Virus record (IMG/VR): IMGVR_UViG_3300019742_000006
Location: 1 to 45,123 of that record
Reading direction: 5' to 3' (one strand)
Origin: a virus
Length of the DNA stretch: 45,123 nucleotides
Under the pieces are notes generated by a model, which made no database searches, was not told the DNA's origin, and saw nothing but the letters and a program-made list of their open reading frames with translations. The translations under genes and the position numbers were made by a program. Each line of letters begins with the position of its first letter. The stretch's first letter is position 1. Below, piece by piece: positions 4,265 to 13,802 of this stretch.

Positions 4265-4468
4265 ATGGAATACAGAACAGAAGAGCAATTCATTGATATA
4301 ATGGAAAATGCAATAAACGGAAATTGGTCAGATGCTTTTAAAGGAGCAGAAGAAGGAGGATTCTTCGCACAAGACCTTATTAGACACTATGAGAATATTG
4401 GTGAAATGTATGGTTTTGAGCTTGAGGATTTAGTATATATCGCTGAAGGAGCACAAAGACTGAGATAA
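4265..4468 (+). CDS. Conserved-type phage hypothetical protein (67 aa)
   Basis: An acidic, aromatic-rich helical protein with a FFAQDLIRHYENIG-like segment. This pattern recalls small helical proteins common in Bacteroidota phages. Function unknown. It shares one base with 4468 (TAATG). Confidence 0.65.
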   Translation: MEYRTEEQFIDIMENAINGNWSDAFKGAEEGGFFAQDLIRHYENIGEMYGFELEDLVYIAEGAQRLR

Positions 4469-4761
4469 TGAAAAGCTACGAAGTAAGAAATTACAGAATG
4501 ATAAAAGTATGTTACGTACCACCAACAAATACTAGAGGTACTATGATTAAGATATTTGAAACCAAAAGGTATAACGACCAAAAAACCCAATCCAAGAAGT
4601 TTAGTTATGATTATCAAATTGGAGATGTTGCAGAACAAGCATTTGATATACTCGTAAGAAACGGATTCAATGTTATAGGTAGAGCTTCTCAATTAGATTA
4701 TTACGTGTTCTTTTGTGATAATTGGAGTAATGAGTTTATTGAAGTTAAAGACTTAAAATAG
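4468..4761 (+). CDS. Hypothetical protein (97 aa)
   Basis: Not recognised. Basic N-terminal half, more acidic C-terminal half, one cysteine. It is the last ordinary operon gene before the cassette array, whose first attC begins 7 bases after its stop. Confidence 0.65.
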   Translation: MKSYEVRNYRMIKVCYVPPTNTRGTMIKIFETKRYNDQKTQSKKFSYDYQIGDVAEQAFDILVRNGFNVIGRASQLDYYVFFCDNWSNEFIEVKDLK

Positions 4762-4767
4762 ATAATA

Positions 4768-4895
4768 TATTAACGGTTTGGCTATGAAACGTAGGCGAAT
4801 CGAAGCACTAAACTTTAAATAATGAATAGATATATAGAAGAAATATAATGTTGAGTTTAGCACTTACTGCCTATATTTTATATTTATTGTTAGGC
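4768..4895 (+). repeat. attC-like site 1 (128 bp)
   Basis: R'' TATTAAC (4768-4774), R' GTTAGGC (4889-4895). The arms pair through TAGGC and GCACTAAA-like blocks. The loop holds GCACTAAACTTT followed by two ATG codons. Its R'' has no matching cassette start upstream, so this is the left border of the array. Confidence 0.7.
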
Positions 4896-4919
4896 GTATG
4901 TGCTTTTAAATATAGTATA

Positions 4920-5108
4920 ATGAAACCGATTGATGCAATAATAGATACGCAAACACAAATACAGAACTTAATAGGTTTGCACAACGATAAACTAAAAGAC
5001 ATAACTGATGAAAAGCAGAAGCAATTTATGAAAGGTATAATTGCTGGATTACAGAGAGCATTGCTTACAATACCTTTAATTGAAACACTTGAAGATTGTA
5101 GTGACTAG
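4920..5108 (+). CDS. Cassette 1 protein, helical hypothetical (62 aa)
   Basis: Starts MKPIDAIIDTQTQIQNL and is predicted all-helical, amphipathic and acidic at the end (a DCSD tail). An in-frame ATG at 4848 inside attC site 1 would add a hydrophobic leader including LYLLLG, encoded by the attC arm itself. I prefer 4920, which lies within the cassette (4890-5237), but the longer form could be a membrane-anchored protein. Function unknown. Confidence 0.6.
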   Translation: MKPIDAIIDTQTQIQNLIGLHNDKLKDITDEKQKQFMKGIIAGLQRALLTIPLIETLEDCSD

Positions 5109-5114
5109 CATTAC

Positions 5115-5243
5115 GCCTAACGTTTTGTATAATATTAGTACGGGAATTAAAGCAGTAACCGCCCGAACTACTCTAAACTTAATTAAATGGTAAGGCTGTA
5201 AAATTAAGCACTAACCCCGTATTAATTTTATACTGTGTTAGCC
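5115..5243 (+). repeat. attC-like site 2 (129 bp)
   Basis: R'' GCCTAAC (5115-5121), R' GTTAGCC (5237-5243). The arms pair strongly: GTATAA.ATTA.TACGGG matches on both sides. R'' with its flank (TACGCCTAAC) mirrors the start of cassette 1 (GTTAGGCGTA). Confidence 0.85.
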
Positions 5244-5260
5244 GCTTTTAAGATTAACAG

Positions 5261-5584
5261 ATGAAAACTTTAAATAGAGCAGAAATAGAAGTAGAAGATT
5301 ACCAAGAGATTTTTAAAAAAGAAGCACACCACAACCATGAAATAATTGAAACTGATAATGGCGTAATAAAATGGAAAGCAAACCCTGATGTAGAACACTT
5401 TTTAAAAAATATCTCACTTAATGATTTATGCCCGCTACTAAATTGCATGGGTTACGATAAAAACAGTGAGGTTTATAGAAAGCTTTATAGAGACATGGGA
5501 TATTCATTAAGCGGTTATTGGGAAATCTTCTACTGGGAAATGAATAATGAAGATGCAGATAGCTACAACCCTAATTGCGGCTAA
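5261..5584 (+). CDS. Cassette 2 hypothetical protein (107 aa)
   Basis: Acidic and aromatic protein starting MKTLNRAEIEVEDYQEIF, with a GYWEIFYWEMNNEDAD stretch near the end. The whole gene lies inside its cassette (5238-5701). It starts 18 bases after R' and its stop TAA is embedded in the R'' box of site 3, a compact integron-style layout. Family not recognised. Confidence 0.75.
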   Translation: MKTLNRAEIEVEDYQEIFKKEAHHNHEIIETDNGVIKWKANPDVEHFLKNISLNDLCPLLNCMGYDKNSEVYRKLYRDMGYSLSGYWEIFYWEMNNEDADSYNPNCG

Positions 5585-5707
5585 CGGCTCGGATAAGCGC
5601 AGTAAATTACTAATAATTAACACCTAAGATTATGGATATTAAAAACTTTGAAAACTTCACAGAGACTGAATATAGAGCAAATTTATTGCGTTTATCTATT
5701 GTTAGCC
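5579..5707 (+). repeat. attC-like site 3 (129 bp)
   Basis: R'' GGCTAAC (5579-5585), R' GTTAGCC (5701-5707), fully complementary. The arms match at GATAA.CGCA.TAAATT. R'' with flank GCGGCTAAC mirrors the cassette 2 start GTTAGCCGC. The site includes the start codon and first 23 codons of the next ORF. Confidence 0.87.
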
Positions 5708-5862
5708 ACTGCGATTTAATTGATAAAGAAGTTTATTACAGTAAGCCCACATACGGTAAGCATAAGGTTTTGCTGTGGGATGAAGACCGCGGAGAATATC
5801 TACTAGCTATTGATGGACACAAATTTTGGACTAATCCATTCCGCATCCATCGTTGTGGCTAA
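5632..5862 (+). CDS. Cassette 3 hypothetical protein starting inside attC 3 (76 aa)
   Basis: The only plausible start (ATG 5632) is in the loop of attC site 3. The frame crosses the recombination point as GTT-AGC-CAC (V-S-H), and the body lies in cassette 3 (5702-5869), which has no in-frame ATG. The body contains an HKVLLWDEDRGEYLLAIDG segment, beta-like. The stop is inside the R'' of site 4. Excising cassette 3 would therefore separate the protein from its first 23 residues. Family not recognised. Confidence 0.65.
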   Translation: MDIKNFENFTETEYRANLLRLSIVSHCDLIDKEVYYSKPTYGKHKVLLWDEDRGEYLLAIDGHKFWTNPFRIHRCG

Positions 5863-5875
5863 CGTATGGTTATAT
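5857..5875 (+). repeat. Collapsed attC-like site 4 (R''-5 nt-R')
   Basis: R'' GGCTAAC (5857-5863) is followed by GTATG and then R' GTTATAT (5869-5875), with no hairpin arms. R'' with flank GTGGCTAAC mirrors the cassette 3 start GTTAGCCAC, and the R' matches the R'' of cassette 4, so the cassette rule identifies it despite the missing centre. Confidence 0.6.
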
Positions 5876-5913
5876 GATTAGTAAAAACTATTTGAAACAC
5901 AAAACTTTAAAAT

Positions 5914-6108
5914 ATGAACTGGATTGACATAAACGAACGGCTGCCAACTTATTATGAGCCTGTACTTATTGTATGCAGCAATAAACACCAAGTAGTTGCA
6001 TGGAGAGCAAGCGATGGAGAAACAGACAGCTACACAATATTAGATACCGACTTTATTGTATGCTATGAAATAACGCACTGGCAGCCACTACCAAAACCAC
6101 CGAAGTAA
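5914..6108 (+). CDS. Cassette 4: DUF551 domain protein (64 aa)
   Basis: Begins MNWIDINERLPTYYEPVLIV and ends ITHWQPLPKPPK. The W-I-x(5)-LP start and the ITHW-x-PLP-x-PP end are the signature of DUF551, a small domain frequent in phages and prophages. The length matches a complete domain. Biochemical function is unknown. It lies in cassette 4 (5870-6131), whose start GTTATATGATTAGTAAAAAC is an imperfect mirror of the bases ending it (6108-6128). Confidence 0.85.
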   Translation: MNWIDINERLPTYYEPVLIVCSNKHQVVAWRASDGETDSYTILDTDFIVCYEITHWQPLPKPPK

Positions 6109-6121
6109 GTTTTTATTAATT

Positions 6122-6137
6122 ATATAACGTGTTATAA
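6122..6137 (+). repeat. Collapsed attC-like site 5
   Basis: R'' ATATAAC (6122-6128), a 2-base spacer GT, and R' GTTATAA (6131-6137). There are no arms. It separates the DUF551 cassette from cassette 5. Called mainly from the cassette-end complementarity rule on both sides. Confidence 0.5.
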
Positions 6138-6230
6138 TACTGGTGGCGGAAATTAAAAAGGCGCAATGTATGGTTCGCAACCATTGCCCGACCGCTGCTG
6201 TGGGAACGAAAACGCAGTTCCGCCACTTGT
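6132..6230 (+). other. Cassette 5 body: ORF-less, G+C-rich foldback
   Basis: No convincing ORF. The start (GTTATAATACTGGTGGCGGAA) and end (TTCCGCCACTTGTTTATAAC) are complementary over about 20 positions. Inside is a second hairpin, GCAATG...GGTT-CGC-AACCATTGC. The G+C content is well above that of its neighbours, suggesting recent arrival from another source. It may encode a structured RNA or be only a recombination module. Confidence 0.5.
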
Positions 6231-6362
6231 TTATAACGGAAATAATAAACACAGTAAAAGATATGAAAGACAAAATTAACAAAGTAGTAGAAGACCTTAA
6301 AAAAGGCACAATAAGTAAAAAAGATGCAGAAACCCTTTTATTGGGTTTATTTAGTGTTAGCA
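6231..6362 (+). repeat. attC-like site 6 (132 bp)
   Basis: R'' TTATAAC (6231-6237), R' GTTAGCA (6356-6362). The arms share AATAAAC.CA.TAAAAG. The length equals that of the other full sites. The start of the next ORF (6263) lies in its loop. Confidence 0.75.
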
Positions 6363-6641
6363 ACTGTTTTATCTGCTCCAAGTGCGGAAAAGAGCTTTAC
6401 AAAGGATGGGAGCAAGCAGCTTGCAACTTTACACTTAACTTAAACATTGATTGCCAAAGCACAAAAGCTCTTTGGGGGGGAAGATGAGAATATAGGATTT
6501 GAACACCCAGCAATCGAAGAAGGTAGCGGATACCAAGGACTAAAAATAGTGAGTGGGGAGGATAAAGATTACAGACTTTGCATAAGCTGCCATCGTAAGT
6601 TTACAAAGATGATTGGCGACTGGCTGAAGAATGGTTGCTAA
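6263..6641 (+). pseudogene. Cassette 6: zinc-ribbon-like protein with a frameshift at G7
   Basis: Reading starts at ATG 6263 inside attC site 6 (MKDKINKVVEDLKKG), crosses the recombination point as GTT-AGC-AAC, and continues to CSKC before stopping at 6487. A +1 shift at the run of seven G (6474-6480) joins it to a frame ending at 6641 with CISC. One G fewer gives a protein of about 125 residues with paired CxxC motifs, a zinc-ribbon pattern. Sequencing error, real inactivation or programmed slippage are all possible. The stop lies in the R'' of site 7. Confidence 0.6.
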
Positions 6642-6732
6642 CGGTTTGTATAAGATTTGAAGGGCAAACCACTAACGATAATTAAGAGAGCAAAAGGCTA
6701 TATTGCCCTTTTAATTTTATACTTTGTTATAG
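6636..6732 (+). repeat. attC-like site 7 (97 bp)
   Basis: R'' TGCTAAC (6636-6642), R' GTTATAG (6726-6732). The arms match over GTATAA.ATT..AAGGGCAA. R'' with flank GTTGCTAAC mirrors the cassette 6 start GTTAGCAAC exactly. Confidence 0.85.
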
Positions 6733-6749
6733 CCAGTTAATTTACTGTA

Positions 6750-6890
6750 ATGAGCAAAAAAGACATAAGGAAAAAGTATAAAAAAGGCGAGTACTTCGAG
6801 AATGGAAAACTTTACAGAGTTGGTAATTGGCTAAAGAGATACTTTGCCACAAAAACCACAAAAGTTAAGCATAAGAATAATTGGCTATAA
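6750..6890 (+). CDS. Cassette 7 basic micro-protein (46 aa)
   Basis: Starts MSKKDIRKKYKKGEYFENG and is strongly basic (many K and R) with an aromatic centre; possibly nucleic-acid binding. It starts 24 bases after R' and its stop TAA overlaps the R'' of site 8. The fully enclosed position in cassette 7 (6727-7008) supports it as real despite its size. Confidence 0.65.
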   Translation: MSKKDIRKKYKKGEYFENGKLYRVGNWLKRYFATKTTKVKHKNNWL

Positions 6891-7014
6891 CGTTGATAAT
6901 ATGGCAAGTAGCCATAAACAGCACAAAACTTTGAATACAGTAAAATGATTATAAACACGCAGATAGTGACAAATACAAGCCTAACTTGGCTATTTGCTAT
7001 ATTTATTGTTAGGC
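6885..7014 (+). repeat. attC-like site 8 (130 bp)
   Basis: R'' CTATAAC (6885-6891), R' GTTAGGC (7008-7014). The arms match at ATAT.GCAA.TAGCCA. R'' with flank GGCTATAAC mirrors the cassette 7 start GTTATAGCC. The loop contains GCACAAAACTTTGAATA. Confidence 0.87.
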
Positions 7015-7023
7015 ACAGTTATT

Positions 7024-7221
7024 ATGGCAAAAAAGACATTATCGTTTGATGCAGAAGGTGTAGCTACTAGTGCAAGAACAAACAACTACCTACACGTAGA
7101 TATTGAAACAGATTACCCCGATGAAATAATAAACGAATTTAACCCAGATGAAATAATAAGCGAATACGCTGACTTGGATGAGTTATATGAGGCACTAAAG
7201 GAACACTTTAACGAAGATTAA
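7024..7221 (+). CDS. Cassette 8 acidic hypothetical protein (65 aa)
   Basis: Starts MAKKTLSFDAEGVATSAR; the second half is highly acidic with a repeated PDEII-x-E pattern (YPDEIINEF, NPDEIISEY). A TTG start at 6994 would add an attC-encoded leader (LLYLLLG), but the ATG at 7024 is inside the cassette and preferred. The DNA-mimic-like charge is only suggestive. Family not recognised. Confidence 0.7.
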   Translation: MAKKTLSFDAEGVATSARTNNYLHVDIETDYPDEIINEFNPDEIISEYADLDELYEALKEHFNED

Positions 7222-7225
7222 TTGT

Positions 7226-7354
7226 GCCTAACGTTTAGCGTATGATACGTTGCTATTAATAGCATGAATTTTAAATAACAAATAAAAGATTATAAGATGA
7301 AGATACTTAATAAATTAGCAGAATGTAAGCAATGGATTATACGCATTGTTATGG
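7226..7354 (+). repeat. attC-like site 9 (129 bp)
   Basis: R'' GCCTAAC (7226-7232), R' GTTATGG (7348-7354). The arms match at GCGTAT.AT.C.TTGCT. R'' with flank TGTGCCTAAC mirrors the cassette 8 start GTTAGGCACA. Contains the ATG of the next ORF. Confidence 0.87.
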
Positions 7355-7584
7355 TGCGTACTTTCTTGCTTAGTAGTGAAAAAAGGCAAAATTATTTGAT
7401 TACAAAAAATGCAAGTATGTTTTTAGGTTTACAAAACGTAGCAAAGCACTGGGATAACTTAGGAGACGTTAGAAGCTCAATGGATATAAGTAGTGAAAGT
7501 TACAAGTACTTAGGTAATTTTGCCTTGTATTGTAATGCAAAAGGAATTGACCAAGTAAAAAGGTTGAAGTTGTATGCACCATAA
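7297..7584 (+). CDS. Cassette 9 hypothetical protein, start inside attC 9 (95 aa)
   Basis: The ATG at 7297 is in the loop of attC site 9, and the frame crosses the cut point as GTT-ATG-GTG, the same codon phase as in cassettes 3 and 6. An alternative in-cassette start is that same ATG at 7351 (MVRTFLLSS, 77 residues). The body is basic and helical. The stop TAA lies in the R'' of site 10. Family not recognised. Confidence 0.65.
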   Translation: MKILNKLAECKQWIIRIVMVRTFLLSSEKRQNYLITKNASMFLGLQNVAKHWDNLGDVRSSMDISSESYKYLGNFALYCNAKGIDQVKRLKLYAP

Positions 7585-7673
7585 CGGTTTGTATATGGTT
7601 TGAAAGCCAACTACAAACGCTGATTAAATGAACGAATATTAACATGGCTTTTTAACTATATACGTTGTTATAA
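7579..7673 (+). repeat. attC-like site 10 (95 bp)
   Basis: R'' CCATAAC (7579-7585), R' GTTATAA (7667-7673). The arms match at GTATAT.GTT..AAAGCCA. R'' with flank GCACCATAAC mirrors the cassette 9 start GTTATGGTGC. Belongs to the shorter size class with site 7. Confidence 0.87.
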
Positions 7674-7691
7674 GCCGTTTTTACTAAAGAT

Positions 7692-8015
7692 ATGATACCA
7701 GAAATAAATAAAGAATACGATTACTTTGATGATGGGAAGATAAACCCAAGCAGGCATGATAAAGTTACAATAACCGAACTTGTGCGTTTTAACAAAATAG
7801 ATAAAGAAATAAAAGCTAACTGGCAAGAAGAAGTTGAGCAATGCCATTGGCTTTACAATAAAGAGACTGACTATTTTGTTAAGGGAAGACTTAAAGAAAC
7901 AAAAGAAGATGTGATATTTGTACGAACCTTAGATAACGGATGGTTTAGTTTAGGATGGTGGGCTGGGCGTTTAGATACAGATGGAAGTTTGATAGCACGA
8001 TTAAATGGCTTATAA
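7692..8015 (+). CDS. Cassette 10 hypothetical protein (107 aa)
   Basis: Starts MIPEINKEYDYFDDGKI and is rich in acidic residues and tryptophan, with segments CHWLYNKETDYFVKG and GWFSLGWWAGRLDTDG that look like beta strands. The gene lies wholly within cassette 10 (7668-8022) and its stop is in the R'' of site 11. A WYL- or SH3-like small beta domain is possible; no family is recognised. Confidence 0.75.
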   Translation: MIPEINKEYDYFDDGKINPSRHDKVTITELVRFNKIDKEIKANWQEEVEQCHWLYNKETDYFVKGRLKETKEDVIFVRTLDNGWFSLGWWAGRLDTDGSLIARLNGL

Positions 8016-8028
8016 CTACGTGTTATAA
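8007..8028 (+). repeat. Collapsed attC-like site 11, right border of the array
   Basis: GGCTTATAAC (8007-8016), spacer TACGT, then GTTATAA (8022-8028). The R'' is the exact 10-base mirror of the cassette 10 start (GTTATAAGCC). No further R'' matching GTTATAAATA follows, so the array ends here. Confidence 0.65.
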
Positions 8029-8050
8029 ATAATTCAAAAAATTGAACCTT

Positions 8051-8281
8051 ATGAAACTATCAAAAGATGAGGAACTTATGTTGTTAAGATTAGAGAAGCG
8101 AATAAATACAAAAGGAGTTTCAAAAGAGTTCTTAGTGCAACTTTTTGAACTATCAGGATTGTATGGTGGATTCGAAACCATAAGTAATTACGGTAAGATT
8201 TACGGAATAAGCTACAACGGTGTAAAGAAAACTCGAAATATAAAAACAATACGAGGTGTAAAGTTCGTTATTGGTAAATAA
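8051..8281 (+). CDS. Hypothetical protein (76 aa)
   Basis: Not recognised. Charged, helical N-terminal half (MKLSKDEELMLLRLEKR) and a basic C-terminal half. A TTG three codons upstream is possible, but ATG 8051 is preferred. First non-cassette gene after the array. Confidence 0.65.
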   Translation: MKLSKDEELMLLRLEKRINTKGVSKEFLVQLFELSGLYGGFETISNYGKIYGISYNGVKKTRNIKTIRGVKFVIGK

Positions 8282-12621: not shown

Positions 12622-13033
12622 AGTAGGTGACAAAGCAATCGTAATTAATGATAATAATCGCTCAACATTTCAGGATGGAGATGAGATAATTATTAAAGAG
12701 TTCTTGTGGTTTTCTGATGGATTTAAAACTAATGCTTACCGTGCTGTAAATAGATTTAATAAGTGTATGGTTGTGTTAGAATCAGACTTAAAACCAGTAG
12801 AAGAACTACCAATTCCAAGAAAAGTAATGGTTAGAGATTATTACAGCTGGCATGAGCTAACTCTTTATCATATTCTTCCAGATAACTTTGGTAGAAGATT
12901 TGTAACGGATTCACCAATGTCTGACAATCCTGTGTCGTGGAAACACATGAAAGAAATAGAAGAGAAACCAACCGAGCTTACGATGGAACAAATACAAGAG
13001 AAGCTAGGTTACGAAGTAAAGATAGTTAAGTAA
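12608..13033 (+). CDS. Modular small-beta protein, family member 3 (141 aa)
   Basis: The N-terminal YKVGDKAIVINDNNRSTFQDG module resembles 13281; the central PRKVMVRDYYSWHELTLYHI module and the C-terminal TMEQIQEKLGYEVKIVK match 10718. It thus combines modules from two relatives. Overlaps erf by 14 bases and 13033 by one base. Function unknown. Confidence 0.75.
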   Translation: MEKYKVGDKAIVINDNNRSTFQDGDEIIIKEFLWFSDGFKTNAYRAVNRFNKCMVVLESDLKPVEELPIPRKVMVRDYYSWHELTLYHILPDNFGRRFVTDSPMSDNPVSWKHMKEIEEKPTELTMEQIQEKLGYEVKIVK

Positions 13034-13284: not shown

Positions 13285-13802
13285 AATTTAAAGTAGGTGA
13301 TAAAGTAAGAGTTATTAATGGTGGTGGTGCTGATAGATTTAGTGATGGTCGTGAATGTATAGTTGCACAAACTGATAATGGTAGTTATTATGAGTATTAT
13401 ATTAGTGACGGTAGTTGTTTTGATTGGATGAGGGGATGTAAATTAGAATTAATTAAAGAAAAACAAATGACAAAAGAAGATTTAAAGAGTGGAATGTTAT
13501 TATTAGATAATAACGATATATTAAGATTGTTTATATTTGGTAAAGCTTATAGTGTTAGTAATGGTAGTTATGATTTAAGTATGATACCAGAAGACTTACA
13601 TAGTGGTGGTTGGGGTATTAAAGCTGTTTATGAAGTAACTGAGGAATTTGGTAATGGTGATTTTGATTACTTCTTAGGTGATAAGAATTTCATAAAATAC
13701 TCTACGCTATTATGGGAATATAAAGAACCAATAAAAGAAATGACTGTATCTGAAATAGCTAAAGAGCTTGGTTATGAAATTAAGGTAGTAGCTAATGATT
13801 AA
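13281..13802 (+). CDS. Modular small-beta protein, family member 4 (173 aa)
   Basis: N-terminal KFKVGDKVRVINGGGADRFS module related to 12608, a middle domain starting MTKEDLKSGMLLLDNNDILR that looks like a second small beta fold, and the C-terminal TVSEIAKELGYEIKVV tail shared with the family. G- and S-rich turns are frequent. It overlaps the helicase gene by 8 bases. Confidence 0.75.
   Translation: MKFKVGDKVRVINGGGADRFSDGRECIVAQTDNGSYYEYYISDGSCFDWMRGCKLELIKEKQMTKEDLKSGMLLLDNNDILRLFIFGKAYSVSNGSYDLSMIPEDLHSGGWGIKAVYEVTEEFGNGDFDYFLGDKNFIKYSTLLWEYKEPIKEMTVSEIAKELGYEIKVVAND

Follow-up and report, generated by a model that had tools for sequence, protein, structure and literature searches.

RESULTS

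A cassette array in a tailed phage

We found that a tailed phage carries what is very probably (about 85%) an integrase-less cassette array belonging to an integron family of phages. The array occupies positions 4764–8028 of the window, by which we mean the whole 45,123-nucleotide stretch analyzed (IMG/VR virus record IMGVR_UViG_3300019742_000006), and consists of nine attC sites, nine cassettes and one terminal attI-like site. The window has matches to terminase, portal, tape measure, primase and Erf, and our search of it found no integrase of the relevant kind; with at least two attC sites and no integrase nearby, the array is a CALIN. The proposal of the first-pass annotation, an integron-type cassette array in a phage without an integrase, is thus borne out by the phage genes, by the structure and covariation of the attC sites and by the lack of a relevant integrase. 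Its inventory is revised, since it listed eleven attC sites and ten cassettes, some of them without an ORF, and we count nine attC sites plus a terminal attI-like element at 8011–8030, and nine cassettes with supported boundaries and exactly one ORF in each.

The host is probably a member of the Bacteroidota, judging by the relatives of the window exonuclease in Bacteroides and Cellulophaga phages (41–46%); the terminase, with one distant relative only, is uninformative. We found no close relative of the window, no relatives of the gene neighboring the array (4468–4761) and no direct terminal repeat of 12–200 bp.

The distant ends of each cassette pair with one another well beyond chance, as the first-pass annotation had also claimed. 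A scan of 4700–8100 yielded eight GTT..AAC pairs of at least 9 bases spaced 90–420 bp apart, whereas 500 dinucleotide shuffles averaged 0.17 such pairs and never exceeded 3. Cognate ends were complementary in 9/9 window cassettes, a result equalled by 0 of 200,000 permutations; the optimal assignment of the nine starts to the nine ends was the cognate pairing, and the run of pairing beyond the core averaged 6.3 for cognate and 1.7 for non-cognate ends. The complementarity therefore holds, but the extent first given for it (7–11 bases) does not, as pairing across 91 cassettes of the family is longer, running 9–10 bp, failing at position 11 and resuming at positions 12–14. Position 11 is a near-invariant mismatch, with a T in R'' in 89 of the 91 cassettes and a pair in 3 of them.

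Our attC calls rest on covariance models built in this analysis: R2, trained solely on sites from outside the window, and R1, which included window sites in its training set, though not the attC at 5853–6140. R2 identified eight full sites between 4764 and 7676 (E 8e-13 to 8e-5) and half of a ninth at 6038–6140 (E 0.04), and gave no further match below E 0.8. R1 found the entire ninth site at 5853–6140 (E 1.6e-4), the loop of which is occupied by a DUF551 ORF.

The nine cassettes, all on the plus strand and 249–464 bp in size, are joined head to tail at YAAC. Cassette 1 (4775–5121) has its attC hairpin at 4772–4896, R' at 4889, an ORF at 4848–5108 and the AAC of R'' at 5119 (R2 E 6.5e-7; 10-bp cognate pair). 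It is followed by cassette 2 (5122–5585; attC 5111–5246, ORF 5261–5584, R'' AAC 5583; R2 E 3e-11, 9-bp pair) and by cassette 3 (5586–5863; attC 5575–5710; R2 E 5.6e-9, 9-bp pair), whose ORF (5632–5862) starts within the attC loop. In cassette 4 (5864–6237), the loop of the attC at 5853–6140 holds the whole DUF551 ORF (5914–6108; DUF551 E 6e-13), with R' at 6131 and the AAC of R'' at 6235; this cassette is based on the R1 match, the R2 half-site and a 7-bp L''/L' pairing. Cassette 5 (6238–6642; attC 6227–6365; R2 E 8e-5, 9-bp pair) has an ORF that is broken at a run of G (6473–6480) into frames at 6263–6487 and 6447–6641, which would hold two CxxC pairs if joined; the break is a frameshift, phase variation or a sequencing error. 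Cassette 6 (6643–6891; attC 6632–6735, R2 E 8e-13) has an ORF at 6750–6890 with its stop codon within R'', and its attC body and R' are 97–99% identical to sequences in three viral loci (L016, L020 and L033) that bear other ORFs. Cassettes 7 (6892–7232; attC 6881–7017, ORF 7024–7221; R2 E 7e-12), 8 (7233–7585; attC 7222–7357, ORF 7297–7584; R2 E 3e-10) and 9 (7586–8016; attC 7575–7676, ORF 7692–8015; R2 E 9e-12) each have a 10-bp pair.

The last R'' leads to AACTAC, not AACG, within TTATAACTACGTG at 8011–8030 (plus strand). By comparison with the YAACTAYTATAT of relatives, we regard this terminus as a putative attI-like site, although it may instead be a collapsed attC.

Among the cassette ORFs of the window, only DUF551 exceeded its Pfam cut-off, and none had a tblastn match in the loci that we fetched. 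An Rfam search gave no match, nor did exact DNA patterns from the loop of the second attC in viral or genome contigs.

One family of attC sites

Sites from the window, from other viral contigs and from bacterial contigs align as one family, composed of AACG, a short spacer, a stem and a variable loop. AAC..GTT cores flank an imperfect hairpin stem, as captured by R1, R2 and the covariation analysis, and the stem has conserved mismatch columns, mostly G opposite T. We observed covariation in 13 of 15 stem pairs with the window sites and in 14 of 15 without them, compared to 0 of 500 shuffles, which argues for folding of the attC.

With a single pattern for this site type, we obtained matches in 32 IMG/VR contigs and, from the genomes of 84,980 species of bacteria and archaea, in 10 contigs; half of the latter are labeled as Bacteroidota genera or orders. 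In the pattern-matched contigs and one related locus, the model found 158 sites at E ≤ 0.05, 22 of them in one contig. The window array is one instance of a system found widely among phages of Bacteroidota, where it is often accompanied by a recombinase of its own.

We also note that a hairpin body 91% identical to that of the second window attC occurs in a phage labeled Rhodobacteraceae (L002, OP947161.1, 13257–13369), pointing to either a doubtful host label or cross-phylum transfer.

The cassette begins with its hairpin

Comparisons between arrays located the ends of the cassette unit. The left ends of homologous segments fell at AAC (within 6 bp) in 69 cases, at GTT in 0 and elsewhere in 32, a count that partly reflects conserved hairpin bodies, so that we placed weight on the ORF-bearing matches; the right ends of these fell at AAC in 6 cases, at GTT in 0 and elsewhere in 8. 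Segments shared by related arrays start at TAACG (YAAC↓G). For instance, a 1111-bp unit running exactly TAACG..AAC is 100% identical in two contigs with unrelated flanks (L010 and L018), units of 369 bp and 310 bp are common to L020 and L033 and to L022 and L037, respectively, and a 394-bp cassette is duplicated at 100% in the L135 array. Since the ORF-bearing matches run TAACG..AAC, the cassette unit is the attC hairpin, R', ORF and R'' in that order, with the hairpin 5' of its own ORF and crossover at the AAC of R'', rather than R', ORF, R'' and hairpin as had been claimed. This unit also explains how ORFs can start inside attC loops, since such a loop and its ORF are parts of one cassette. 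Canonical polarity, which was our own first reading, was dropped on this boundary test and on the occurrence of a common hairpin and R' with differing ORFs to either side.

This last arrangement is seen at 6639–6744 of the window, where the attC body, R' and about 15 nucleotides also precede differing ORFs in L016, L020 and L033, with matching R'' at the far ends; such a common hairpin and R' may bear on the making of new cassettes. The contig L016 also holds minimal cassettes (12920–12955 and 13507–13531) with only TCGTTTTAATG between R' and R'', and this linker recurs as an attC loop in L020.

A short tyrosine recombinase beside an attI-like site in relatives

We searched the site-bearing records for an integron integrase and found no canonical IntI; 0 of 34 viral records exceeded the TIGR02249 cut-off. 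Short tyrosine recombinases were present in or beside arrays in four viral records and several bacterial MAGs. Using an alignment of five recombinases from bacterial genomes, we fetched 80 viral loci, which were thus selected by protein and not by attC. In these loci, 106 of 106 attC sites lay upstream of the recombinase on the same strand and none downstream, even though more downstream sequence was searched. Among 47 recombinase loci with at least 2.5 kb upstream, 21 had no R1 site; some of these were GC-rich and apparently belong to other lineages. Nine records carrying both integrase and attC sites also have terminase genes and are therefore phages.

In 23 of 31 attC-bearing loci, an attI-like site was present, and the last R'' leads into YAACTAYTATAT, usually 54–55 bp before the recombinase start codon. 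The reverse complement of YAACTAYTATAT is an attI-type core, G↓TTRRRY, which in relatives stands beside the integrase; the window has just an attI-like end. Two loci (L095 and L099) are identical from the attI-like site through the integrase and different before it, and two other arrays (L108 and L117) likewise diverge exactly at this site.

The recombinase itself (about 260–290 aa) is XerA/IntI-like, co-directional with the array, and retains the tyrosine-recombinase catalytic residues. A stretch that spans 82 aa in VchIntIA takes up 34 aa in this enzyme, such that the I2 insertion is absent, and an AlphaFold2 model (pLDDT 86) has no extra helix at this position. Its best family model is NF040815 XerA, at scores under the cut-off of that model, and its best folds are XerA (Z 20.6) and VchIntIA (Z 19.6), which are tied, followed by XerH (Z 18.7).

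Family attC sites also lie near I2-less recombinases in three bacterial MAG contigs (L070, L072 and L069), and in the Tenacibaculum case the orientation of attC and recombinase is convergent. Near the attC-linked recombinases of Bacteroidota chromosomes, we did not observe the attI-like motif known from the phages.

These comparisons bear on whether the window array is a piece of an ordinary chromosomal integron captured by a phage, which would have normal polarity and rely on an IntI of the host. CALINs of bacterial type have been reported in phages (PMC9892861), and the window has no integrase, which would fit such a piece. We nevertheless consider this explanation unlikely, since homology boundaries fall at the AAC of R'' and not at the GTT of R', since the site type is found in many viral contigs and in so few among the species genomes, the ten of which had no match above the IntI cut-off, and since many phages have their own recombinase beside the array.

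Cassettes are gained and lost among cultured phages

Homologues of the recombinase are encoded by cultured phages, namely the Polaribacter phages Freya_1–10, Danklef and Leef and the Cellulophaga phage Ingeline, and R2 sites are present in Freya, Leef, Danklef and the Polaribacter phage P12002L (one Freya site is in the R2 training set). The first-pass annotation had looked to variation of cassettes among related phages; relatives of the array family do show changes of content at exact unit boundaries, but the window lacks a close relative with which to compare it. The genome of Freya_10 includes all of Freya_1, with 43,978 identical bp and 0 mismatches, and the sole difference is a 4.9-kb array, absent from Freya_1, at the attI-like site. 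With letters for blocks of one or more cassettes, the array is a in Freya_2; a,b in Freya_5; a,b,e in Freya_6; a,c,d,f in Freya_8; a,b,c,d in Freya_9; and a,b,c,d,f in Freya_10. All joins across these seven isolates, which would appear to come from one lineage, are at AAC↓. Similarly, a methylase cassette of 778 bp is present in Danklef_1 but missing from Danklef_2, 3 and 4, which have the join CTCTAAC↓TAAAAAG. Thus, cassettes are gained and lost at exact sites among isolates, although the activity in Freya could be supplied by the host instead.

In Danklef_1 (L172, 40940–41491), the integrase is missing about 95 N-terminal residues, and ...CACAAC↓ stands before the break, the pattern expected had the end of the array recombined into this gene. 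Such truncation is one way for an array to lose its integrase.

Could the shuffling result from homologous recombination, of the Erf/RecT annealing type, at repeated hairpins? Genes for an Erf-like annealing protein and for RecT are present in the window and in Freya, respectively, and the hairpin bodies are repeated. We find this very improbable, however, as the Freya joins, exact in each of seven isolates, have only about 3–5 bases (YAAC) in common, the array-free genome has otherwise identical flanks, and homologous recombination gives no reason to keep the R'/R'' pairing and the stem covariation. A fixed, immobile operon of small genes with hairpins as RNA signals (terminators or regulatory stems) would fit hairpins lying between genes, co-directional ORFs and a window that has no relative for comparison, but it can practically be dismissed, given pairing that joins distant cassette ends (for which a local RNA hairpin has no need), identical units in unrelated contexts and whole units missing from some isolates.

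DISCUSSION

We propose that the window array belongs to a phage integron family whose full form, present in other phages of the family, ends at the attI-like YAACTAYTATAT, directly upstream of a co-directional, I2-less recombinase. The recombinase would release cassettes in circular form and insert them into the attI-like site, which would make arrays grow beside the integrase and allow cassettes to pass from one phage to another. Viewed as the reverse complement, this is ordinary integron geometry, with attI G↓TTRRRY by a divergent integrase, and the one exception is the direction of the cassette genes, which read toward that integrase. The phage of the window retains the array and an apparent attI-like end but not the integrase, and because of this its cassettes, which may be mobile, would need enzyme in trans, from the host or another phage; they may be served in this way or be stranded. 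The sites, their pairing, the unit boundaries, the association of integrase and array and the gain or loss of cassettes among isolates are shown by sequence, whereas supply in trans, the recombinase as agent and folded single strands as its substrate are inferred. Against such a substrate, the family recombinase lacks the I2 helix, a helix that recombination of single strands is believed to require.

Integrase-less phage arrays are already known. Qi et al. 2023 (PMC9892861) report 17 such attC arrays (CALINs) among 10,705 genomes, in virulent phages, and tests of P12002L attC sites with IntI1, in which one of its two sites worked. The window array shares with these its attC sites, its lack of an integrase and its setting in a tailed phage, and we find nine model sites of the window family in P12002L at E ≤ 0.04, a likeness at the level of the phage rather than of single sites. 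The parts of Qi et al. considered here describe no dedicated phage integrase, reversed polarity or isolate-level turnover. Freya, Danklef and Leef have the integrase, array and attI-like end or remnant of the phage integron family; their integrase was taken as a sign of temperate lifestyle or potential (Bartlau 2021, PMC8776804), in a paper whose main text does not contain the word integron. A paper on Epsilon crAss phages (PMC11054128) mentions integrons solely as a search tool. Our search, which covered open-access papers in PMC, found no account of reversed polarity, of an integrase lacking I2 or of live turnover in the papers examined.

The phage family resembles sedentary chromosomal integrons with IntI (e.g. 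Vibrio) in its R''/L''/L'/R' attC, in having about one ORF per cassette, in growth at attI and, in the reverse-complement view, in attI G↓TTRRRY. In contrast to these, its integrase is about 45–50 aa shorter, the I2 insertion included, its genes point to the integrase with the hairpin 5' of the ORF, and its R stem is extended to some 14 bp, interrupted by a fixed mismatch at position 11. Among known enzymes, the recombinase is closest to the XerA, XerH and XerC group of tyrosine recombinases, with NF040815 XerA as its best family model and XerA and XerH among its best folds, but its gene, unlike theirs, lies next to cassette arrays and an attI-like site. Canonical integrons have the I2 insertion and attC 3' of genes that point away from attI; because the phage family, although integron-like in architecture, has neither the insertion nor this polarity, we assign the window to the CALINs of a variant integron family and do not treat it as a piece of a canonical integron.

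More generally, we think it likely that Bacteroidota phages have an integron class of their own, in which an I2-less integrase acts on folded attC sites, cassettes with a 5' attC point toward the integrase, and recombination is frequent enough for accessory genes to be shuffled between phages within one bloom or enrichment. If so, phages own a gene-capture platform for accessory genes, among them methylases and many unknown small proteins, and this platform is already active in cultured isolates in which it can be tested. How cassettes are made is an open question that could be approached through those cassettes whose ends are conserved but whose ORFs differ. According to the abstract of PMC7790495, the I2 helix is regarded as the step that led to single-strand recombination, and a phage integrase of this kind would therefore bear on the origin of integron integrases. 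Finally, an "integrase" in such phages need not signal lysogeny.
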